Source of the DNA: a virus
Strand: one strand, 5' to 3'
Virus record (IMG/VR): IMGVR_UViG_3300047552_002926
Location: 1 to 50,464 of that record
DNA length: 50,464 nt
The position numbers and the translations under genes are program-made. The notes beneath the pieces are model-generated. The model did not search any database and had not been told where the DNA came from. It saw nothing but the letters and a program-made list of their open reading frames with translations. Below are positions 2,122 to 50,464 of the stretch, piece by piece. Numbering within the stretch: the first letter of the stretch is position 1; the number at the start of each line of letters is the position of its first letter.

Positions 2122-3414
2122 ATGCCACGAATAATCCATGCACTTTCTGATTTACAAATAAAGCGATGGATGTCTAAAGGTGAACCAGTGGCTAAATCCG
2201 ATGGGGATGGCCTAACGTTCACTCTATCAGGTGCAGGGACTGCCGCTTGGGTACTCCGTTACCGAAACATGGGCGGCAAGCGGCAAGAGGTCACCATTGG
2301 CAACTATCCCGATGTGTCACTGTCATCTGCGCGTGAAAAGTCACGCGCAATGCGAGCCAAGATTGACGCAGGCTCTGATCTGGCAGCAGACAAGCGCCAA
2401 TCCCGCGCTCGGTCAGCAGAGGCATGGACTGTCAATGAGCTACTGGAAGACTACCGAGACAAGGTGCTTACCGCTGGCAACTACGCAAAAGACACCATCC
2501 GATATCGAAACGATGACTTCAATCAGGTGATATTGCCATTTTTCCGCGCATGGGAAGTTCGAGCCGTTACCTCGATTGACGTGGTGCATATGCTGAAAAA
2601 AGCAAAGCGCACATGGACGGTCTCAAAGCGAGTTCTTACCTCAACGTCTAAATTAATGGATCACGCCCAAGGTTTGACGATCATTGCCGCCAACCCGTGC
2701 ACAGGAATCAAACTCAGCTCTATTTTTGGTAAAAGACCCCCCATCAAGAAGCGCCTCATGCTCGATGTGGCAGAGCTTCAAAGAATGTTACCTACCATCG
2801 ACGAGAGCATTGGGCGTGACAACGGACTAGCGTTCCGAATTCTTCTGTCTACCTGCGTTCGTGGCATTGAGCTGGTCAAAGCAAAGAAAGAGCACATTGA
2901 TCTTGAAAGCGGCTCTTGGTGGGTACCGGATGAAGACGTTAAAACCCGCAGTGGGTTTCTTGTCCCTCTATCACCCGCAGTTTTAGGGTGGTTCAAAGAG
3001 CTTATATCGGTGGCAGGAGATTCGACTTATGTGCTTCCGGCAAGGCGAGCGGACGTGATTAGGCGAAACGGCGGTGACATGCACGTTGGTCGGACAACGC
3101 TTTGGGCTGCATTTGCTCGAGCCTTCAAGCGTGGCGATTTAGATATCAGGAAGTTCACACCCCACGACACGCGCTCAACAGCGAAAGGCCACTTGAGAAA
3201 TTTAGGGTTTTCACGCGAGATTAGCGAGGTGGCGCTGAACCATTCACTCAAGGGAATGGAGGCCATCTATGACGTGCGCGAGGAAATACCAGAGCGAAGA
3301 ACTGCAATGTCCGCATGGTCTGATTTTGTTGTCTATTGCGAAACTGGAGAGACACCAAAACAACCCACCAATGTAGTGGTGATGCGTCCGCTAAATTCCT
3401 CAAGTCAGCATTAA
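2122..3414 (+). CDS. int: Prophage tyrosine integrase (P4-type)
   Basis: Site-specific recombinase that inserts and excises the prophage. At 430 aa it has the N-terminal DUF4102-type arm-binding domain (about residues 1-95), a core-binding domain (about 100-200) and a C-terminal catalytic domain. Catalytic residues can be placed at Arg247 (TCVRGIEL), Lys274, His348 and Arg351 (HDTR), His374 and Tyr383 (AIYD). The start is set by AGAGGAAACAATG. It reads away from the host genes, into the phage, and is not part of the leftward late operon. Confidence 0.93.
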   Translation: MPRIIHALSDLQIKRWMSKGEPVAKSDGDGLTFTLSGAGTAAWVLRYRNMGGKRQEVTIGNYPDVSLSSAREKSRAMRAKIDAGSDLAADKRQSRARSAEAWTVNELLEDYRDKVLTAGNYAKDTIRYRNDDFNQVILPFFRAWEVRAVTSIDVVHMLKKAKRTWTVSKRVLTSTSKLMDHAQGLTIIAANPCTGIKLSSIFGKRPPIKKRLMLDVAELQRMLPTIDESIGRDNGLAFRILLSTCVRGIELVKAKKEHIDLESGSWWVPDEDVKTRSGFLVPLSPAVLGWFKELISVAGDSTYVLPARRADVIRRNGGDMHVGRTTLWAAFARAFKRGDLDIRKFTPHDTRSTAKGHLRNLGFSREISEVALNHSLKGMEAIYDVREEIPERRTAMSAWSDFVVYCETGETPKQPTNVVVMRPLNSSSQH

Positions 3415-13581: not shown

Positions 13582-14289
13582 TTATGCACCAATTGCTTTT
13601 GATGCCTTGTGTATGTCTTCTGAAATCTGCGAGTAGGCCTCTGCACCTATGTCGCAAAGCTCAGCCAATGTAAAGTGTTTGAGGCTAGCTCTCACCTTTT
13701 CGGCTTCACTTGGGGTTCTAGTTTTAATCCGAATTGCCTGTCGAAACAAAGCGCCATTTGCCGCACCAGCGATTGCAATCACGTCATTTAGGCAAATTTC
13801 TTGCATCTTGATAGCGTTAGCAATCTCAGAGCCAGTCATTACATAACAGTCATCTGTTAGCTCTTTGATCATCTGCTCACCGCTTGAATCAAGGCATACA
13901 CACCAGCGGCGCGGTTTCGGCGGTTGATATTTTTGCTCGACTGCGTAACTTCCAGTTTTGCGAATGGATGGCAAGACCTCCCCCGTCACCCACTTTGCAA
14001 ACTTTCTGGCCTCTGGCTTTCTACTGCGGAGCACTAGGGCGTACAGGCCGGACTCGTTGATGATGGTCAGTTTTTGCTTTCCACCAAGGGTGTCACTAAT
14101 CGTTACACCCCTTTCATCATCATCAAGATGGTCGGCGACTGCCTTTCGTGGATTTGCATAGCCAAGGGCTTCGCAAATATCCCCAGAGACGAACCAAGGG
14201 CTCCCATTTTTAAGAATCACGCGAATAGCGCTATCTCCAAAACGAAAGACGTTTTCAGAAAAGGTTGCATGGGTAGTAGTAGATGACAT
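13582..14289 (-). CDS. Bro-N antirepressor-like protein
   Basis: A 235-aa protein with an N-terminal Bro-N domain (about residues 10-115: FRFGDSAIRV, then GDICEALGYANPRKAV, LTIINESGLYALVLRSRKPEA and FAKWVTGEVLPSIRKTG). The C-terminal half is not recognised. In phages such proteins often bind repressor or DNA and act as antirepressors. The start is the ATG at 14289, six bases after GGAG; the more upstream frame is the structured leader. It lies alone in an accessory block within the tail genes and is preceded by a C4-type antisense RNA, the classical control of ant genes in P1 and P7. Confidence 0.85.
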   Translation of the reverse strand: MSSTTTHATFSENVFRFGDSAIRVILKNGSPWFVSGDICEALGYANPRKAVADHLDDDERGVTISDTLGGKQKLTIINESGLYALVLRSRKPEARKFAKWVTGEVLPSIRKTGSYAVEQKYQPPKPRRWCVCLDSSGEQMIKELTDDCYVMTGSEIANAIKMQEICLNDVIAIAGAANGALFRQAIRIKTRTPSEAEKVRASLKHFTLAELCDIGAEAYSQISEDIHKASKAIGA

Positions 14290-14374
14290 TTTGCGCTCCA
14301 TTGCGGTGTTGAACCGCCACCCACTTCCAAATGGGGTGGCAGACCGAAACGAGGTTGGAAGACCGATGGAGCAC

Positions 14375-14500
14375 CGGCGAACCTTGCGGCTCCCCCATTT
14401 CGGCCCACCGTAAACTGGACGCGCCAAGATGTGAAAAAAGCCGCAAAACTAGCAAGTTAGCGGCCTTACACCGCTCCAAACGAGCTTCCAAACTCGATCA
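14375..14500 (-). ncRNA. C4-type antisense RNA controlling the Bro-N gene
   Basis: The minus-strand leader of the Bro-N gene has the layout of phage C4 antisense RNA. Segment a' GCGGTGT (14474-14468) is complementary to ACACCGC (14309-14303), which lies just before the Bro-N GGAG. Segment b' AAATGGGG (14400-14393) is complementary to CCCCATTT (14336-14329). The target region also has its own GCCACCC/GGGTGGC stem near 14317-14341. A possible promoter with -35 TTGACT (14553-14548) and a weak -10 near 14529-14523 lies upstream. In P1 and P7 the processed RNA pairs with the downstream mRNA and blocks ant translation; that action here is inferred from the pairing. Confidence 0.78.
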
Positions 14501-37951: not shown

Positions 37952-38161
37952 TTAGATAGCCCTCGCCTTTTTGGATTTAGAAGCCTTGCTGAACTTTTTG
38001 TGAAGCTCGTGAATAGCTTGACCAAGCGCGAATCTCGGCTCCGTAGATTTGCCCGTGGACAAATCGCTGATAGTTGCCTGAGCGCACCCACAGGCGGCGG
38101 CAATTTGTGGCTGTGTAACGCCGAAGGATTGAAGTTCGGAAATGATTTTTTTGAAGCTCAT
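37952..38161 (-). CDS. cro: Cro-like repressor
   Basis: A 69-aa DNA-binding protein with one helix-turn-helix, VTQPQIAAACGCAQATISDL (about 13-32), and a basic end (KKFSKASKSKKARAI). It is the first gene of the leftward early operon, divergent from the CI-like gene and sharing its operator. The ATG lies 6 bp after the -10, so the mRNA probably begins at or next to the start codon and has no leader. The longer frame beginning upstream would cross the operator and is rejected. Confidence 0.85.
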   Translation of the reverse strand: MSFKKIISELQSFGVTQPQIAAACGCAQATISDLSTGKSTEPRFALGQAIHELHKKFSKASKSKKARAI

Positions 38162-38167
38162 ACCGAA

Positions 38168-38196
38168 ACTATAACGGTTATCCGTTATTACGTCAA
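38168..38196 (-). promoter_or_regulatory. Early leftward promoter with operator (pR-like)
   Basis: On the minus strand -35 TTGACG (38196-38191), 17-bp spacer, -10 TATAGT (38173-38168). A perfect palindrome TAACGG-TTAT-CCGTTA (38172-38187 on the plus strand) fills the spacer and touches the -10, so repressor binding must block polymerase. A looser AAACGG...CCCGTTT pair (38195-38217) lies toward the CI gene and could be a second operator. Confidence 0.88.
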
Positions 38197-38233
38197 ACGG
38201 TTTTTTGATACCCGTTTTTAGTAAGGTACGGAT

Positions 38234-38701
38234 ATGGCTACCGAATACGGAAAAAGACTGAAGCAAGCAAGAACTAATGCGGGACTAACGCAGGAGGCTG
38301 CTTCAAAAAAAACAGGCATTAGCCAAAGCACTATCTCAACTGCTGAGCGCCTAGGTAATGGATCGGCTGAGAATCATGCTTACGCAATTGCTTATGGCGT
38401 AAGCCCGATTTGGCTCGCTACTGGCGAGGGGCCAATGCACTACGAAGCCGGAAGCGTAAGTGTTGAACGCCCTTCACCTACGGTGGCTGTGGCGTTAGAT
38501 GCGATAGAGGATGCTTGTGAAAAGCTAAATCAAGAGCAGCGCAAAGAACTCGGCTCTCTGTTGGCCATGTTCGTAGCCAATCCACGCGAATCGATCAAAC
38601 AAGTCATTCTTGAAACGCTTTGTTCGGTAGCGAACAAACCCTCGGAACACACTTCCCACTTAACTAAAAATAGCCAAGAAAAATTTTTGAAAAAGGGTTA
38701 A
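38234..38701 (+). CDS. CI-like prophage repressor (no protease domain)
   Basis: A 155-aa XRE-family repressor with the N-terminal helix-turn-helix RTNAGLTQEAASKKTGISQS (about residues 13-32) and the family ending GVSPIWLATGEGPM. The remainder (residues about 75-155) is helical and has no S24/LexA-like Ser-Lys self-cleavage domain. Induction would therefore need something other than RecA-stimulated cleavage, for example an antirepressor. AAGG lies eight bases before the ATG. It faces right, opposite Cro. Confidence 0.85.
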   Translation: MATEYGKRLKQARTNAGLTQEAASKKTGISQSTISTAERLGNGSAENHAYAIAYGVSPIWLATGEGPMHYEAGSVSVERPSPTVAVALDAIEDACEKLNQEQRKELGSLLAMFVANPRESIKQVILETLCSVANKPSEHTSHLTKNSQEKFLKKG

Positions 38702-38831: not shown

Positions 38832-39218
38832 ATGGTTCGATCTATCTTCGCCTCTGTTTTGTTGGCGGCACTTCTTTTAAGTGGGTGCGCATTGCAGCCA
38901 CCATCAAAAGAAGCGCTTGCAAATGCAGATTACGGAAAGTTTCCAAATGACTACGAGCAGATCGTAAAAAGTCATTACGCACGAAGACTTAAAGACCCAG
39001 AGTCGGTGATTTACAAGGGGATCACATACCCAAGCACATTTTTTCTTGGGTCAAGATTCGATGGAGACACCTATGGGTATCTAACTTGCGCCACCTTGAA
39101 TGCAAAAAATTCATATGGTGGATATATCGGGTACAAAACTGATGCCTTGATTATCAGGAACGGTGTGGTGGTGATGCGAATTGATGATGCTTACTGGTTC
39201 GGGAAGAGGCTTTGTTGA
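38832..39218 (+). CDS. Phage-encoded lipoprotein
   Basis: A 128-aa lipoprotein: signal MVRSIFASVLLAALLLSGC with lipobox LSGC and acylated Cys19. The mature part has AHYARRLKDPES-like helices (IVKSHYARRLKDPESVIYKG) and a beta region (AKNSYGGYIGYKTDALII). Expected in the periplasm or outer membrane. Placed directly after the repressor and followed by its own terminator, it is probably made in lysogens, where such proteins often block superinfection. The region before it (38702-38831) is very AT-rich and probably holds its promoter. Confidence 0.75.
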   Translation: MVRSIFASVLLAALLLSGCALQPPSKEALANADYGKFPNDYEQIVKSHYARRLKDPESVIYKGITYPSTFFLGSRFDGDTYGYLTCATLNAKNSYGGYIGYKTDALIIRNGVVVMRIDDAYWFGKRLC

Positions 39219-39295: not shown

Positions 39296-39316
39296 CCCGC
39301 TTCGGCGGGTTTTTTT
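39296..39316 (+). terminator. Terminator after the lysogenic genes
   Basis: CCCGC-TTCG-GCGGG (39296-39309) followed by seven T. It separates the CI/lipoprotein transcript from the next promoter, 46 bp further on. Confidence 0.88.
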
Positions 39317-39361: not shown

Positions 39362-39390
39362 TTGACCGATAACGGATTACCGTTTATATT
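39362..39390 (+). promoter_or_regulatory. Rightward early promoter with operator (pL-like)
   Basis: -35 TTGACC (39362-39367), 17-bp spacer, -10 TATATT (39385-39390). The spacer holds TAACGG-ATTA-CCGTTT (39370-39385), the same operator as at the Cro promoter in the same place. The two promoters are near copies over 29 bp. It should be silent in the lysogen and fire on induction. The predicted start is about 39397. Confidence 0.87.
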
Positions 39391-39396
39391 TCACCC

Positions 39397-40171
39397 ATCG
39401 CAGCAAAACAGCGAAACAACCAAGGCCAAGCGATACGTGGCCTAGCCCGACAGGATGCAAAGGGTGGTTTAGGAGCAAAGGCTCCGCAGCACAAAGTTTT
39501 GCAACGGTACAGAGTGATTAGTGAAGGGTTCAGCGGTTCAGCTCCGTTGATTGTTGGACACCCTATGTAGTAGTAGATAAAAGCCGCTGCTTTATGCGAG
39601 GCCTTCAACCACTTCACTAATCACTCTAAACGGGTGAATGTGCATTGTCAGGCTCACCGTCAAGACCTTTAAAAATCTGACCCTTGCGGTTCTCTACCAA
39701 GCAGACAGCAAGCGTACACATCGGGCGTGATCGGTGTTGAGGTAGGAGCGACCAAGAGAAGAAACGCTGCAAATCATCACAGGCACTGGCTCAGGCTGGT
39801 GTCGATGTGATGGCAAGTTTTCCGAAACCGAGTGATCGGGTTATGTCGGACGCACACACGCCCTAGCGGGTATTGATAACCAAGTACGTGTGCAAATGGC
39901 TCTAGAAATAGAGCCATCACAGAGTCGTCGGCGTGGAATGACACGCATCAAACGAGAGCGCTCTTGTTTGAGTATTTCAGGCACTGAACAAGTAATTCAG
40001 CGAGCCGTGGGTAATGCGGGGCATAAATCCCGCACCAGAAATAGCTGGTGTCAAACCCAGCACGACTCTGCGATGGTGTCTCAACTTGATTGGATTTGCG
40101 GTTGCATCAAGAAGCGCATGCAACTCCAGCACACCATCTTCAATCCAAGCCCTCCCCCGCGAGGGCTTTTT
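39397..40171 (+). ncRNA. Large structured noncoding RNA, GOLLD/ROOL-class candidate
   Basis: About 775 nt between a strong promoter and an intrinsic terminator (AGCCCTC/GAGGGCT then T5, 40147-40171), with no convincing gene. Perfect helices include: GCAAAAC 39403/39496; AGGCCA 39423/39438; GGAGC-AAAG-GCTCC 39472-39485; the 16-bp AGAGTGATTAGTGAAG 39511/39612; CATCACA 39775/39806; a 9-bp stem with GAAA loop 39896-39917; a 12-bp stem 39948-39971; a three-way junction 40006-40064; and GATGGTGT 40072/40131. CTTGAT 40085/ATCAAG 40106 and GTTGC 40101/GCAAC 40120 form a candidate H-type pseudoknot. Size, density of helices and phage setting fit GOLLD or ROOL RNAs. Class assignment is by likeness, not alignment. 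Confidence 0.72.
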
Positions 40172-40180
40172 CACGCACAC

Positions 40181-40267
40181 GCTTTGTTGCACCTCTTGTC
40201 TGTTGAGTGTCCCTCAACCGTCCAGATAAACCCCAACCACTACGACTGGCAGGTGGTGCAACAAAGC
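40181..40267 (+). repeat. 13-bp inverted repeat in the leader of DGR target 2
   Basis: GCTTTGTTGCACC (40181-40193) pairs exactly with GGTGCAACAAAGC (40255-40267), enclosing a smaller GTTGAG/CTCAAC hairpin (40203-40217). The stem ends about 15 bp before the ribosome site AAGGA of the target gene. Transcripts that pass the terminator at 40171 would carry it as a structured leader. Confidence 0.8.
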
Positions 40268-40294
40268 GCTGCAAATTCAACCAAAAGGAAATCT

Positions 40295-40609
40295 ATGTCA
40301 AAAGCCCAATTCATCAAAGAAAACCTCAAGCCAAACGAAACTTATGTCGGAATCCTGATTGGAAAGAACGGTCAGCCAGATCACCACGTAGCACTGCTTG
40401 AGGGTGAGTACAAATTGAACTGGCACGATGCGACGAAGAAAGCCAAAGAGCTTGGCTACATCCTTCCTGATAGACGGACACAGAGTCTGCTGTTTGCCAA
40501 TGCCAAAGAGAAGTTTGCAGCTGATTGGTATTGGTCAAGTGAGCAGTCCTCAGACAGCGACGCTTGGCTTCAGCACTTCGGCTACGGCAGTCAGCACGGC
40601 TACAGCTAG
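40295..40609 (+). CDS. DGR target protein 2, cut short by an amber codon in the VR
   Basis: A 104-aa DUF1566/C-type-lectin-like variable protein. The start is the ATG at 40295 (AAAAGGA upstream). Residues 30-80 match DGR target 1 (WHDATKKAKELGYILPDRRT, SLLFANAKEKFAADWYW). The variable repeat follows from residue 84. Codon TAG at 40607 stands where the template has AAG. Reading past it would add 14 residues (SSERRCCFVRRLVL) and end at 40654, exactly as in target 1. The gene is thus a remote target 6 kb before the RT, probably inactivated, reversibly, by the retroelement's own mutagenesis. Confidence 0.85.
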   Translation: MSKAQFIKENLKPNETYVGILIGKNGQPDHHVALLEGEYKLNWHDATKKAKELGYILPDRRTQSLLFANAKEKFAADWYWSSEQSSDSDAWLQHFGYGSQHGYS

Positions 40610-40642
40610 TCTTCCGAGCGCCGCTGCTGTTTCGTCCGCAGA
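40544..40642 (+). repeat. DGR variable repeat 2 (VR2)
   Basis: 99 bp aligned without gaps to the template repeat. It differs at 14 positions, all of them adenine in the template, spread over twelve codons. The last 33 bp (TCTTCCGAG to CGCAGA) are identical to the template and to VR1 and should be the initiation-of-homing segment. The next 26 bp (40643-40668) are identical to those after VR1 but not to the template flank. Confidence 0.95.
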
Positions 40643-40682
40643 TTAGTCCTTTAAACCTTTAATCCTTTGAATCGGATTAGCC

Positions 40683-41691: not shown

Positions 41692-41870
41692 CCCACTACT
41701 TCGCCCCCAACACCATCGAGCATCACGCTCGAAAGGTTCCTAACAAATGGTTGCTTCGTGCAGCCATTGTTTTTTTGTGCGGTTGCTTTGATCTGGTGGT
41801 TGCTATGACACCAGAACAAGCCCTCGCTTTTGTGCTGGTTGCAGCATTTATTGATTTTTTGATTGGATAA
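41688..41870 (+). CDS. 60-aa membrane protein
   Basis: Two hydrophobic segments (LLRAAIVFLCGCFDLVVAM and ALAFVLVAAFIDFLIG). ATGA overlap with the upstream gene and end just before the recT start. Function unknown. Confidence 0.55.
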   Translation: MTHYFAPNTIEHHARKVPNKWLLRAAIVFLCGCFDLVVAMTPEQALAFVLVAAFIDFLIG

Positions 41871-41874
41871 CGAA

Positions 41875-42975
41875 ATGACAAATACAGACCTAGCCGTTAA
41901 ATCGGCAGATAGCCTTCCAGTTTTGGCAACGAGTAGCGCATCTCTAATGATGGACTCGGCAAGCCTCGACAAGATGGAGCGATTGGCAAACATGATGGCA
42001 ACCGCCAAATCAACAGTTCCAAATCACTTTAAGGGTAGCGTCGGCGACTGCCTTGCAGTGGTAATGCAATCTGTAACGTGGCAGATGAACCCATTTGCAG
42101 TCGCGCAAAAAACATTCCTAGTAAGCGGTGTTCTTGGATATGAGGCTCAGCTAGTGAGCGCGGTAATCAACAACAGCGGGGCAGTTAAAGATCGCTTTCA
42201 CTTTGAGTGGTTTGGCTCTTGGGAAAAGATTATTGGGAAGTTCAAAAAAGTTACATCCAAAACAAAAAAGGATGACAACGGGAACTTCAAAGAGTACATC
42301 GTCCCTGCATGGGAAATTTCAGACGAACAAGGTCTAGGGGTACGAGTTTGGGCAACTATTAAGGGTGAATCAGAACCCCGAGTGCTTGAGTTGCTGATGA
42401 CGCAAGCGCGTACACGAAATTCAACGCTGTGGACAGAAGACCCAAAGCAGCAGCTTGCATACTTGGCTCAAAAACGATGGGCGCGTTTGTATGCGCCTGA
42501 CGTAATTCTTGGTGTCTACACACCCGACGAACTTGAATCATTCAAGCCGCCCGTCAACATGGGCAATGTGGACGAGGTTGGCTCGGGTGCAAAAGAGGTC
42601 GATGCAGACCAGCTCCTAAAAGAAGGTTGGGCAAAGGCTGCGAAAGGTATGACTGAGTTTGGCCCTTGGTTCAACGGTTTGCCTAAATCATCAGAAGGCA
42701 ACCACCGACCAACTATTGAGCCTCACCGTGCAGCAATGCTTGCAAAAGCCCGAGAGGTTGATAGCTCTCGAACGATAGATGCCGAAGTTAAGGCACCTAA
42801 AGATTCGCAGGTTGTCATTACCTACGCGAAAGTGATGGAAAGCCTCATAGCTGCAAAAAATCACGAGCAGCTTGATTCGGCTGCTGACTTGATCGGTGAG
42901 GTATCAGACCCGAAGCAACGTGCAGAGCTAACCGCCAAGTACGAGGCGCTTCAATCAACTATGCAAGCGGAGTAA
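41875..42975 (+). CDS. recT: RecT-family single-strand annealing protein
   Basis: A 366-aa RecT/Bet-type protein from the ATG at 41875; it anneals complementary single strands in phage recombination. Family patterns are ANMMATAKSTVPNHFKGSVG, AVVMQSVTWQMNPFAVAQK, GYEAQLVSAVINNSGAV and YLAQKRWARLYAPDVILGVY. Its partner exonuclease follows 3 bp later. In this arm of lambdoid phages the recombination pair is transcribed from pL, which fits the promoter at 39.4 kb. The same single-strand handling could bear on DGR homing, but that is speculation. Confidence 0.93.
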   Translation: MTNTDLAVKSADSLPVLATSSASLMMDSASLDKMERLANMMATAKSTVPNHFKGSVGDCLAVVMQSVTWQMNPFAVAQKTFLVSGVLGYEAQLVSAVINNSGAVKDRFHFEWFGSWEKIIGKFKKVTSKTKKDDNGNFKEYIVPAWEISDEQGLGVRVWATIKGESEPRVLELLMTQARTRNSTLWTEDPKQQLAYLAQKRWARLYAPDVILGVYTPDELESFKPPVNMGNVDEVGSGAKEVDADQLLKEGWAKAAKGMTEFGPWFNGLPKSSEGNHRPTIEPHRAAMLAKAREVDSSRTIDAEVKAPKDSQVVITYAKVMESLIAAKNHEQLDSAADLIGEVSDPKQRAELTAKYEALQSTMQAE

Positions 42976-42978
42976 CCA

Positions 42979-43689
42979 ATGCGAATAGTCGAATGCGAAC
43001 AAGGAAGCGAGGAATGGCACAAGGCTCGCGCTGGAGTCATTACCGCCTCCATGTTCAAGGTTGCTAGGTCACGCCTAAAGGTTGGTCCACGTAAAGGTGA
43101 CTTCACTGATGCCAGCAAAAACTACGCTTTCCGAATCGCCATTGAGCGAATCGGTGGGAAGCCTCTCGACGAAGGGTTTTCAACATGGCAAATGAAGCGC
43201 GGCAACGAGCTTGAGCCAAAAGCCAGATCACGACACGAAGAAGAAGCCGCCGTGATTGTTGAACGCGCCGGATTTGTTCTCACGGACGATGGCGTATTTG
43301 GAGCAAGTGCAGACGGGTTGATTGGTGATGACGAGGGTAGTGAATACAAGTGCCTAGTGTCGCCAGAAGGTTTGCGCGAGATTCTGATCAATGACGACAT
43401 AGGTGAATTTCTAGATCAGGTATATGGCTGTCTCTGGATTACAGGGCGTAAGCGTTGGCACTTTGGCCTCTACTGCCCTCCCCTTGCCGACATTGGAAGA
43501 GACTTCACTTTGAAAATTTTGAAGCGTGACGACGACTACATCTTTGAACTAGAAAAAGACTTGATTGATTTCAAGTCAATGGCAGATGGCTACGAGAGAA
43601 CTCTGCGACTAGACATTGAATCAGGAAAGGCGCAAATCAACGATCTGCAAGTTGAAGCCTCCCTGCAAGTTGAAGAAATTGATTTTTAA
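42979..43689 (+). CDS. YqaJ/lambda-exo type exonuclease
   Basis: A 236-aa 5'-3' exonuclease of the YqaJ family, partner of RecT. Active-site residues are visible: GSEEWHKARAGVITAS near residue 10, an Asp in GASADGLIGD, and the Glu-x-Lys of SEYKC (about residues 113-115). It makes 3' overhangs for RecT. Confidence 0.93.
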   Translation: MRIVECEQGSEEWHKARAGVITASMFKVARSRLKVGPRKGDFTDASKNYAFRIAIERIGGKPLDEGFSTWQMKRGNELEPKARSRHEEEAAVIVERAGFVLTDDGVFGASADGLIGDDEGSEYKCLVSPEGLREILINDDIGEFLDQVYGCLWITGRKRWHFGLYCPPLADIGRDFTLKILKRDDDYIFELEKDLIDFKSMADGYERTLRLDIESGKAQINDLQVEASLQVEEIDF

Positions 43690-45305: not shown

Positions 45306-45812
45306 ATGAACATCGGAACAGTAAACATCAACATCACCCACGGTCAATCAAGCGTGGCCCGTGCCTTCATCGAGGCAATGCTCCGCAGCCCAGAAACTGG
45401 CGAATCAGAGTCTATTGAAACAAGTCATGCAGTCCCACAAATCGGCGAATACTGGCAAGGTCAAGGCGGCATCTATGCAGGTATGTGCCGAGGCTTGAAC
45501 GGTGAGCGTGATTACCCATTGATTCTTTTTACCGAAATCACAGAGACAGAGCGAAATTGGAAAGACAGTCTTGATGCCTCAAAGGAAATCACAGCCGATG
45601 GCCACCAAGACTTTCATGTACCAACAAAAGAAGAAAGCGCCCTGCTCTACGCAAACCTGAAAGACAAGTTTGATGCAGATACGTGGTACTGGACGAGTAC
45701 GCAGTACTCAGACAGCCACGCTTGGATTCAGTACTTCGACAACGGCCATCAGAACGACACCAGCAAGTCTTCCGAGCGCCGCTGCTGTTTCGTCCGCAGA
45801 TTAGTCCTTTAA
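45306..45812 (+). CDS. DGR target protein 1 (DUF1566 / C-type-lectin-like)
   Basis: A 168-aa variable protein. The N-terminal 45 residues are a separate segment (MNIGTVNINITHG...). From about residue 48 follows a DUF1566-like fold with DFHVPTKEESALLYANLKDK, TWYWTSTQ and a C-terminal FVRR, as in many DGR targets of the C-type-lectin group. The variable repeat covers residues 133-165, and seven codons differ from the template. No signal peptide or membrane helix, and no virion-attachment part that I recognise. It is the first gene of the cassette target-avd-TR-RT, the same order as in Bordetella phage BPP-1. Confidence 0.9.
   Translation: MNIGTVNINITHGQSSVARAFIEAMLRSPETGESESIETSHAVPQIGEYWQGQGGIYAGMCRGLNGERDYPLILFTEITETERNWKDSLDASKEITADGHQDFHVPTKEESALLYANLKDKFDADTWYWTSTQYSDSHAWIQYFDNGHQNDTSKSSERRCCFVRRLVL
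45702..45800 (+). repeat. DGR variable repeat 1 (VR1)
   Basis: 99 bp aligned without gaps to the template repeat. Seven differences, every one at a template adenine: AAC to CAC, TAC, GAC, GAC, ACC and AGC, and AAT to CAT. The final 33 bp are identical to the template. The flank 45801-45826 is identical to the VR2 flank. Confidence 0.96.
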
Positions 45813-45828
45813 ACCTTTAATCCTTTAT

Positions 45829-46188
45829 ATGCTTCACACCGATCTTCCAATTTATAAAAAAGGCTGCGAGCTTGTCTCGTTGGCCTTTCAGGTTCAAACG
45901 CAAATGCGCCGTGACTTCAAGCGCTCATTAGGCGAGAAGATCACGAGCCATTGCACTGAAATGGTTAATTTGATGGCACTAGCAAATGCATCAAGAGGCC
46001 ATCAACGCGCAGAGCATATTCGGGTACTGCTTGAAACGCAGCACGCAACGACTGTTCTCATGCGCGTATGTCACGACTCAAGACTTGTATCAACAAAACT
46101 TTGGGCTGAGTCAGTGCAATTGCTTGATGGAATTGGTAAGCAAGGTGGTGGCTGGTTGAAATCAAGCAAGAACACGCCTGTTGTATGA
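45829..46188 (+). CDS. avd: DGR accessory variability determinant (Avd)
   Basis: A 119-aa helical protein of the Avd / S23-ribosomal-insert-like four-helix bundle type: DLPIYKKGCELVSLAFQVQT at the start, FKRSLGEKITSHCTEMVNLM and a late ILL-type helix. In known DGRs it forms a basic barrel that binds the RT and template RNA and is needed for mutagenic cDNA. It lies between target 1 and the template repeat; its stop overlaps a possible RT start (ATGA). Confidence 0.9.
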   Translation: MLHTDLPIYKKGCELVSLAFQVQTQMRRDFKRSLGEKITSHCTEMVNLMALANASRGHQRAEHIRVLLETQHATTVLMRVCHDSRLVSTKLWAESVQLLDGIGKQGGGWLKSSKNTPVV

Positions 46189-47555
46189 CGGTCAAGGCCC
46201 TCATTCCCGTGCGTACATTGAATCTGGTTATGCCCCTAGCTCAAAAGGCTACGGATATGCGCTCCACAGAAACTGCCGAACAATCGCTCGGTATGTCTGG
46301 CGCAATTTCTACGTTGATCGGCTCAGACCTTCGGCGTGGCGATGTGAAAAGCATACAAAGACGCAGTACTCAGACAGCAACGCTTGGATTCAGAACTTCA
46401 ACAACGGCAATCAGAACAACAACAACAAGTCTTCCGAGCGCCGCTGCTGTTTCGTCCGCAGAAACAAACTTGCCAACATTCGACCAGCTCGTGCAAGCCT
46501 ACCTAGATTGCAGAAAGAGCAAACGCAACAGCTCAAGTTGCAGGGCTTTTGAAGATCATCTAGAAAGGAACTTGTGCGACGTATATGAAGAGTTGATTTC
46601 TGGCAAATATCAGCCAAGTCGATCAATTTGCTTCGTAATCACGCAGCCAAAGCCAAGAGAGGTTTGGGCTGCTGAGTTTAAGGATAGGGTTGTTCATCAT
46701 CTGCTTTACAACCATATAAGCCCACGCTTTTATGCGAGTTTTATTGCGAATAGTTGCGCTTGCATCCCAACCAGAGGAACCTTATACGCAGCCGAGCGCC
46801 TTGAGCATAGTGTTCGATCTATTACGCAGAACTGGAGCAAGTCGGCGCATTATCTAAAGATGGATTTATCCAACTTCTTTGTTGCGATTGATAAAAACGT
46901 ACTTCGTGAGCAGTTGGCGATGCGGGTCATTGAGCCTTGGTGGATGAATCTTACAGAGTCGATACTTTTTCACGACCCTCGCTTAAATGTGGAGGTCAGA
47001 GGAAACGGCAAGACTCTTGCGCTTGTGCCGCCTCATAAAAGCCTGTTCAATGCGCCTGATCACTGCGGGTTACCGATTGGAAATCTAAGCAGTCAGTTTT
47101 TTGCAAATGTTTATCTTGATGCCCTTGACCAATATTGCAAGCACAAGATTGGCGCAAAGCATTACGTTAGATATGTTGATGACTTCATCATCCTTCATGA
47201 GTCAGCCGAGTGGCTAAACGATGCATTAAGACGAATTACAGAATGGCTACCACTTCGACTTGGTGCAAATTTAAACCCGAGAAAAACAATATTGCAGCCA
47301 ATCCATAGAGGCATCGACTTTGTTGGGCACGTTATCAAGCCTTGGCGCAGAACAACAAGAAAACGAACGATTAGAACGGCACTCAGCCGGATTAGATCAA
47401 TTTCAGACGATGAAACATTTGAAACTGGAAACAGCTATTTAGGGCTTTTTGGTCAAGCAAGCCATAGCCATTCAGACCGCGCACAAATTGCAAACGCATT
47501 GCGATTGCGTGGTCACTCAGTCCAGCAGGACTTAACAAAGATTTTCAGAAAGTAG
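46185..47555 (+). CDS. DGR reverse transcriptase
   Basis: RNA-directed DNA polymerase that copies the TR RNA with errors at adenines. On the full frame (456 aa) the motifs are: PREVWAAEFKDRVVHHLL near 157-174, LKMDLSNFF with Asp227, GLPIGNLSSQFFANVYLD (295-312), RYVDDFIIL with the catalytic YVDD at 330-333, and FVGHVIKPW near 379. No maturase or endonuclease domain is present, so it is not a group II intron RT. The start is uncertain. The ATG at 46185 overlaps the avd stop in the style of this operon and would put the TR inside the coding frame. TTG at 46470, eight bases after the TR, gives 361 aa, the more usual DGR RT size. Confidence 0.94.
   Translation: MTVKALIPVRTLNLVMPLAQKATDMRSTETAEQSLGMSGAISTLIGSDLRRGDVKSIQRRSTQTATLGFRTSTTAIRTTTTSLPSAAAVSSAETNLPTFDQLVQAYLDCRKSKRNSSSCRAFEDHLERNLCDVYEELISGKYQPSRSICFVITQPKPREVWAAEFKDRVVHHLLYNHISPRFYASFIANSCACIPTRGTLYAAERLEHSVRSITQNWSKSAHYLKMDLSNFFVAIDKNVLREQLAMRVIEPWWMNLTESILFHDPRLNVEVRGNGKTLALVPPHKSLFNAPDHCGLPIGNLSSQFFANVYLDALDQYCKHKIGAKHYVRYVDDFIILHESAEWLNDALRRITEWLPLRLGANLNPRKTILQPIHRGIDFVGHVIKPWRRTTRKRTIRTALSRIRSISDDETFETGNSYLGLFGQASHSHSDRAQIANALRLRGHSVQQDLTKIFRK
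46364..46462 (+). repeat. DGR template repeat (TR)
   Basis: 99 bp rich in AAC codons (a run of four AAC then AAG near 46414-46428). Both variable repeats match it except at adenines, so it is the non-variable donor. Its 3' flank diverges from both VR flanks right after CGCAGA. It lies between avd and the RT core, inside the long open frame of the RT. Confidence 0.96.
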
Positions 47556-50118: not shown

Positions 50119-50279
50119 TGCAATCCAAATTACCAAGACTGCCAGCACAAACCGACTTCTTCACCCCAAAGTACACCGCCGAGCAAATGCGGGAGTACGC
50201 GCGGAAGGCTATTGAGGCTGAGTTGAAGGCTCGAAACATTGGCCATACGCACAAACCAAATCCTCGAAAGGGTGAATGA
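50115..50279 (+). CDS. 54-aa protein before the excisionase
   Basis: From the ATG at 50115 to TGA at 50279. One amphipathic helix (YTAEQMREYARKAIEAELKA) and a basic tail. Overlaps both neighbours. Unknown. Confidence 0.55.
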   Translation: MMQSKLPRLPAQTDFFTPKYTAEQMREYARKAIEAELKARNIGHTHKPNPRKGE

Positions 50280-50464
50280 TGAACACCGCAATACACTCAC
50301 TCACTTATCGGGTAAGCACAGCGGCGGCAAAGCTGGATATTTCGCGTGCGACAATTTATCGATTAGCTGCCGCAGGAAAGCTAAGACTGATTAAGGTCAG
50401 CACTCGCGCCAGCGGAATCACCGCAGAAAGTCTGAACAAATACGTCAACGACTGCGGCAAATGA
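50276..50464 (+). CDS. xis: Excisionase-like HTH protein
   Basis: A 62-aa MerR/HTH_17-type DNA-binding protein. The core is VSTAAAKLDISRATIYRLAA (about 13-32), then a short wing KLRLIKVSTRASGITAESL. This is the size and form of phage excisionases, which bend attachment DNA and direct integrase to excise. It is the last gene of the rightward operon, and in the circular phage would stand just before attP and int. A small transcription regulator is the alternative. Confidence 0.75.
   Translation: MMNTAIHSLTYRVSTAAAKLDISRATIYRLAAAGKLRLIKVSTRASGITAESLNKYVNDCGK

Follow-up and report, generated by a model that had tools for sequence, protein, structure and literature searches.

A two-target diversity-generating retroelement in the predicted early operon of a temperate phage, and related elements in phages of one reverse transcriptase clade

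The virus record analysed here (50,464 bases, called the window in the counts) is that of a temperate tailed phage, and it almost certainly carries a diversity-generating retroelement (DGR) placed among the early genes, judging by its own sequence and by that of related loci. Our explanation of the whole, to which we give about an even chance, would be that an active-type DGR in a lambda pL-like early operon makes changing intracellular binding proteins. The element consists of the following parts.

40295 to 40609, plus strand: target 2, 104 aa (ATG at 40295, in-frame amber at 40607-40609, natural end TAA at 40652-40654)
40543 to 40642, plus strand: VR2, forming the 3' end of target 2 and differing from the template repeat at 14 positions, all A
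45306 to 45812, plus strand: target 1, 168 aa, a short N-terminal helix and an Lcl_C (DUF1566) domain carrying VR1
45699 to 45800, plus strand: VR1, forming the 3' end of target 1 and differing from the template repeat at 7 positions, all A
45829 to 46188, plus strand: avd, accessory variability determinant, 119 aa
46172 to 46363, plus strand: RT-15 structured RNA (RF03018), 141.9 bits in Rfam (gathering value 82), directly 5' of the template repeat
46361 to 46462, plus strand: template repeat (TR)
46430 to 46462, plus strand: invariant GC-rich, IMH-like 3' part of the TR, which VR1 (45768-45800) and VR2 (40610-40642) share unchanged
46470 to 47555, plus strand: core of the DGR reverse transcriptase (RT), with YVDD and GLPIGNLSSQ (PHROG 1423 at 3.6e-112)

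The order target 1, avd, TR and RT, which is that of BPP-1, had been proposed in the first-pass annotation and was confirmed, together with a second target said to lie about 6 kb before the RT: VR2 is found 5.8 kb upstream of the TR. The description of the element as a complete two-target DGR stands as far as the anatomy is concerned, but target 2 is broken by a stop codon of the DGR's own making and only target 1 is intact. The TR and both VRs were recovered independently by a repeat finder and by BLAST, and BLAST found no further VR elsewhere in the window. The RT and Avd genes are intact in the record; the YVDD and GLPIGNLSSQ motifs are invariant across the RT alignment, and Avd matches PHROG 3206 (Avd) at 1.2e-21 and Pfam bAvd at 3.6e-8, the latter below the curated cut-off. 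By analogy with BPP-1, the GC-rich 3' part of the TR has a putative IMH role. The RT-15 RNA is probably the 5' part of a DGR RNA that ends in the TR.

The coding core of the RT begins near TTG 46470, while its open frame reaches back to ATG 46185 through the TR and the RT-15 RNA. In 96 of 128 relatives this stretch (46185-46470) reads open as far as the stop of avd; the other two frames are open for 280 nt in 0/125 and 6/125, and the spacing preserves the frame in 71/88. Synonymous changes are mildly enriched in it (39% against 25-27%; 80% in the RT core), and stops interrupt it in Haboob and phPA-G. The TR may belong to the translated part of the RT gene, with its translation coupled to that of avd.

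The first-pass annotation had counted 7 VR1 and 14 VR2 differences from the TR, all at template adenines, and base-by-base comparison bore this out (7/7 and 14/14, with no difference at a non-adenine position in about 100 aligned bases). Under random placement, computed with 31 A in a 101-base core, the chance of this would be 1.5e-4 and 5e-9, respectively. Target 2 owes its length of 104 aa, and the loss of its last strand, to one of these changes, by which a template AAG was turned into TAG in VR2. Of the two target sizes that had been given, 168 aa holds for target 1, while 118 aa for target 2 is obtained only when the amber is read past. Read-through by a recoded genetic code was ruled out, since TAG ends 3 of 32 genes in the window, including the RT. 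The amber allele is a DGR by-product, and as the TR still holds AAG, later retrohoming could rewrite it.

The RT was found by tblastn and alignment-based scans at 55-76% identity in the phages Magia, Cruim01, QDWS, Haboob, LPPA56, phPA-G and SC_8, and also in 80 viral and more than 40 bacterial contigs, the bacterial ones being almost all from Beta- and Gammaproteobacteria. A single RT clade, from phages of Beta- and Gammaproteobacteria, yielded TR/VR pairs at 125 loci (261 VRs). There are usually two to four targets per phage, and 82 of the 86 loci with at least 9 kb of upstream sequence hold two to four VRs. The VRs always lie upstream of the RT and on its strand across the 125 loci, none being downstream or on the other strand. 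At the TR adenines 3423 of 8080 positions are changed; the low number of changes at the other bases is partly forced by the filter of the TR/VR search and is not used as evidence. In the RT tree the clade members group with one another, and BPP-1, VP58.5, BalMu-1 and further distant DGR RTs fall outside; the control and distant RTs are split off by a branch with 96% SH-aLRT, with one locus (L133) at the edge of the clade and the Lagaffe row, whose translation was in the wrong frame, disregarded. Carriage of the clade RT by plasmids was considered and rejected, only distant RTs of less than 60% identity being found there. Hujiaoplasma phage zrk29-1 (OP650936, our locus L009) and Shewanella phage QDWS (OK094664) are both 47,902 long and have the same RT match; their stated hosts are unrelated, and one host assignment may be wrong.

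Divergence between relatives repeats the pattern seen within the window. Between Haboob and phPA-G, two phages of Pseudomonas aeruginosa, the TRs do not differ at all, while the VRs show changes at 13/32 and 12/35 adenines and at 0/138 other sites; other pairs with identical or near-identical TRs behave in the same way. VRs that diverged at adenines alone between phages with identical TRs are indirect evidence pointing to mutagenic retrohoming. Stop codons are rare in the clade (2 of 261 VRs carry one): TR codon AAG became TAG twice and GAG 26 times, AAC became TAC 488 times and GAC 346 times (Fisher p 2.7e-8), a comparison which is weakened by the relatedness of the loci and by a possible preference for tyrosine at AAC, with the stop deficit still large. 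From this deficit the targets appear to be selected to stay full length. The near target of one relative (L032:8809-9288), about half identical to target 1, likewise has a TAG derived from a TR AAG codon.

The early placement was deduced from the gene map of the window, in which late and replication genes occupy the minus strand from 4.1 to 35.8 kb (the late ones being tail spike, J, tape measure, capsid, portal and terminase), and recT, the exonuclease, the DGR and a xis-like HTH gene lie on the plus strand from 38.2 kb to the end of the record. The genes and candidate control sites relevant here are listed below.

2122 to 3414: integrase
37952 to 38266, minus strand: Cro-like HTH protein, divergent from the repressor, at 38.2 kb
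38168 to 38196, minus strand: pR-like promoter before cro, with operator TAACGGTTATCCGTTA at 38172-38187; best promoter-like site of the minus strand
38234 to 38701, plus strand: repressor-like HTH protein
38832 to 39218: small lipoprotein gene (PHROG 2320, of unknown function), immediately after the repressor
39362 to 39390, plus strand: pL-like promoter, with operator-like TAACGGATTACCGTTT at 39370-39385 between -35 and -10; best promoter-like site of the plus strand
40180 to 40268, plus strand: long hairpin immediately 5' of target 2 (z -6.4 for the RNA fold of 40140-40289)
41863 to 42975, plus strand: RecT single-strand annealing protein (1.9e-36)
42979 to 43689, plus strand: exonuclease (3.8e-30)
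50276 to 50464, plus strand: xis-like HTH protein

The layout is that of a lambda pL-type region, in which a divergent repressor/cro pair is followed by recombination genes and xis, opposite the late genes, and the earlier statement that the targets lie among recT, exonuclease and xis on the strand opposite the late genes was found correct on this map. The pL-like promoter stands about 900 bp before target 2 and would head an operon of target 2, recT, exo, target 1, avd, TR and RT. The operator TAACGGTTATCCGTTA is a perfect 16-base palindrome; with up to 3 mismatches it has 10 matches against 1.0 expected (both strands being counted for palindromes), and the pR-like and pL-like sites are the two best of them. 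Promoter-like sites as such are not commoner than in shuffles (6 found, 11.3 expected, in one genome and by pattern). It is by pattern that the two operator-bearing sites are read as pR and pL. Similar palindrome pairs are weak (13/16) in Magia and Haboob, and none was found in Cruim01, phPA-G and SC_8. A strong terminator-like site at 39296-39309 parts the repressor and lipoprotein genes from the pL-like promoter; with this site and the operator-bearing promoter before it, target 2 should be off in the lysogen, and the operon is predicted to be silent in the lysogen and expressed early.

Three further structures were noted in the leader. A terminator-like stem at about 40147-40171 precedes the long hairpin, comparable to the structured leader before lambda N; another stable hairpin of the 0.9 kb pL leader lies at 39495-39642 (z -3.8, no Rfam match), and there is a palindrome at 39948-39971. 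The lipoprotein gene at 38832-39218 occupies the position of the lambda rex genes.

The same placement was met across the clade, where marker genes from annotated relatives were mapped on all loci. Late markers are opposite to the DGR strand in 40/40 cases, coming from the 19 loci in which they are present, many clade loci being too short to contain any; cro/O/NinG-type markers are also opposite (24/24). The DGR strand carries 26 of 27 repressors and 115 of 122 early-left markers (recT/exo/int-type), and in each of the seven loci with both an identified repressor and an identified remote target, the target follows the repressor on its strand at a distance of 1.0-2.9 kb. In the control phages BPP-1, VP58.5, BalMu-1, Lagaffe and Bacteroides F4 the DGR is found in or beside the tail, baseplate or lysis end of the late module, and the targets have 253-410 aa. 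Whereas a BPP-1-type target is encoded in the late (tail) module, the targets of the window belong to an early operon on the opposite strand. A DGR target hidden among the late genes was considered and rejected, for the rest of the window has no VR, and the late regions available for 8 phages gave no Lcl_C homologue. The suggestion that the targets are made early is supported by the gene map, by the predicted operator-bearing promoters and by the placement in related loci.

The targets themselves are small. Target 1 matches Pfam Lcl_C (PF07603) at 8.4e-9 with 36.2 bits (curated cut-off 34.9), and the truncated target 2 reaches 15.8 bits, below the cut-off. Structure prediction of both proteins, which the first-pass annotation had proposed as a check, returned C-type lectin folds: target 1 as such a fold with a short N-terminal helix (pLDDT 86), and read-through target 2 as a bare C-type lectin-fold (Lcl_C) domain (pLDDT 97). 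Two of the alignments used for prediction were built without rows from phage records. Among solved structures, Legionella Lcl and Bdellovibrio Bd2740 come nearest in fold, each with its C-terminal domain (Z 13.2 and 13.6); when solved structures were searched by sequence, the Lcl domain (chain 8q4e, called HbP1) and vertebrate lectins were the sole matches. Lcl, an adhesin that is secreted, shares domain family and fold with the targets, as do other DUF1566 proteins, but the phage proteins have no export signal. The clade targets form one homologous family (BLASTP from target 1 or 2 matches 251 of 255), mostly of 120-210 aa and mostly consisting of the lectin-fold domain alone. By a simple test, which detects the phage's own lipoprotein as a control, only 4 of 256 have export-signal-like N-termini. 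The earlier remark that the targets lack a virion-attachment part agrees with the absence of any recognisable tail-attachment module. By their sequences they look like soluble cytoplasmic binding proteins.

We consider it moderately probable that the targets are intracellular early binders rather than virion parts. During infection or induction the operon would supply RT, Avd and TR RNA along with RecT and replicating phage DNA, and mutagenised cDNA would then be placed into the 3' ends of the target genes, so that every phage lineage would possess 2-4 versions of a small soluble binder, all of them subject to change. These would be made inside the cell before the virion genes are switched on, and their most likely use would be the binding of host (or competitor) proteins which vary between hosts, in a diversified form of counter-defence or of action against the host. 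In lambdoid phages, anti-host functions such as Gam, Ral/Lar and methyltransferases are housed in the early operons, and some of the relatives have genes annotated as a host nuclease inhibitor, as Lar and as methyltransferases. A diversified multi-copy binder in an early operon fits counter-defence best, the ligand being a guess, and service in counter-defence specifically has in our estimate somewhat less than an even chance. Several points weigh against this explanation: early operons can contain genes which act later or end in virions; the operators and promoters are assigned by pattern in one genome, the pairs in relatives being weaker or missing; none of the targets could be matched to a known anti-defence family, and PADLOC matches nothing near the DGR beyond the RT; and the C-type lectin folds of other DGRs are mostly surface binders.

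The main competing view is that the targets are small virion (tail-tip) decorations, made early and assembled late, and that the DGR still serves to adjust adsorption, as it does in BPP-1. Receptor-binding proteins are diversified by nearly all phage DGRs characterised so far (PMC8144416, PMC10743442), an altered host range was suggested by the authors of Magia (PMC7883833), and the target fold is that of adhesins such as Lcl; against these stand the missing tail-attachment module in proteins which are mostly just the lectin-fold domain, the position of the targets opposite to every late marker found, and the control phages, with their larger targets in or beside the late module. The tail-tip add-on already mentioned in the first-pass annotation gained no positive evidence, there being neither a tail module nor a late-region Lcl_C homologue (8 phages), and we regard it as unlikely. 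The targets might instead be made in lysogens or on superinfection and bind competitor phage proteins, as an intracellular superinfection-exclusion repertoire. The remote targets lie shortly past the repressor on its strand (7/7), where lambda carries rexAB, and DGR-based immunity has been proposed for cells (PMC10053308); but target 2 stands behind the terminator-like site at 39296-39309 and a predicted operator-bearing promoter, and avd and the RT are in the same operon as target 2. We regard this reading as improbable.

It is also conceivable, if quite improbable, that the cassette is placed here to supply retrohoming with the RecT-type annealing and replicating DNA it requires, and its position reflects the timing of mutagenesis, not the function of the targets. 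recT/bet and exonuclease share the operon in the window and in several relatives, and the cDNA of a reconstituted BPP-1 DGR is thought to anneal to lagging-strand DNA (PMC12875486). However, the same paper makes no mention of RecT (PMC12875486), the operon also contains the targets, DGRs of the BPP-1 type operate from a late module, and RecT was detected, with a small marker set, in a minority of the clade loci. Highly improbable, finally, is that target 2 is decaying as a pseudogene and that this genome holds a mere relic of a DGR: the amber in VR2 speaks for it, but that stop arose at a TR adenine, as did all the remaining VR2 differences, the rest of the frame, the RT and Avd are intact, the read-through protein is predicted to fold with very high confidence, and stops of this kind are exceptional in the clade.

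Compared with known systems, the element resembles the BPP-1 DGR (mtd-avd-TR-brt) in gene order, adenine-only changes, the presence of Avd, a C-terminal VR in a C-type lectin fold and a GC-rich invariant 3' end. It differs in its early operon opposite the late genes, the RT-15 RNA and a distinct RT clade; BPP-1 mutates one tail protein of 381 aa from a late tail module, and the clade has 2-4 small targets instead of one. The RT-15 RNA, listed in Rfam, is readable here as the 5' part of the DGR RNA. Burkholderia phage Magia belongs to the same clade, with the same early-operon placement, an RT of 61% identity, and near and remote targets. Its authors described a potential DGR with targets in the short genes 47 and 57 (PMC7883833); by TR/VR comparison there are three, the third VR being borne by gene 46 (L007:12163-12627), which they did not name. 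The Pseudomonas phages Haboob, phPA-G, Cruim01, LPPA56 and SC_8 and the Shewanella phage QDWS have the same cassette on the early side, with two tandem near targets before avd (Cruim01 has a remote one in addition), unlike the window with one near and one remote target; in most of them the RT is annotated and the DGR has largely gone undescribed. In a large survey the targets of viral DGRs were mostly structural proteins of the tail (PMC8144416), and no description of an early-operon class was found in the open-access literature, subscription papers and preprints being outside the search.

Phage DGRs are taught as tools of receptor switching, and this clade suggests that phages diversify intracellular proteins as well: the rewriting of 2-4 small soluble proteins from an early operon would mean that some factor encountered within the cell, or at a very early stage, changes quickly enough to repay the same machinery. 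We put forward only tentatively a widespread class of temperate phages in which a repressor-controlled multi-target DGR maintains an intracellular binder repertoire that neutralises variable host defences from the start of infection; if true, this would be an evolvable, antibody-like counter-defence of phages. The clade also offers natural libraries built on one small binding scaffold whose structure is predicted with very high confidence.

Some minor features of the record may be added. No near copy of the phage was found in the sequenced genomes of one host family, where 6 of 299 match, the best with 66% DNA identity. Positions 1-1923, adjoining the integrase, encode thymidylate synthase, dihydrofolate reductase and a DUF4337 protein; as these resemble genes of a host chromosome, the record may include the flank of an integrated prophage. 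A C4 antisense RNA (RF01695, 54.6 bits) at 14332-14415, inside the tail module, overlaps the start of an antirepressor-like gene (13582-14427), an arrangement comparable to the c4-ant immunity locus of P1.
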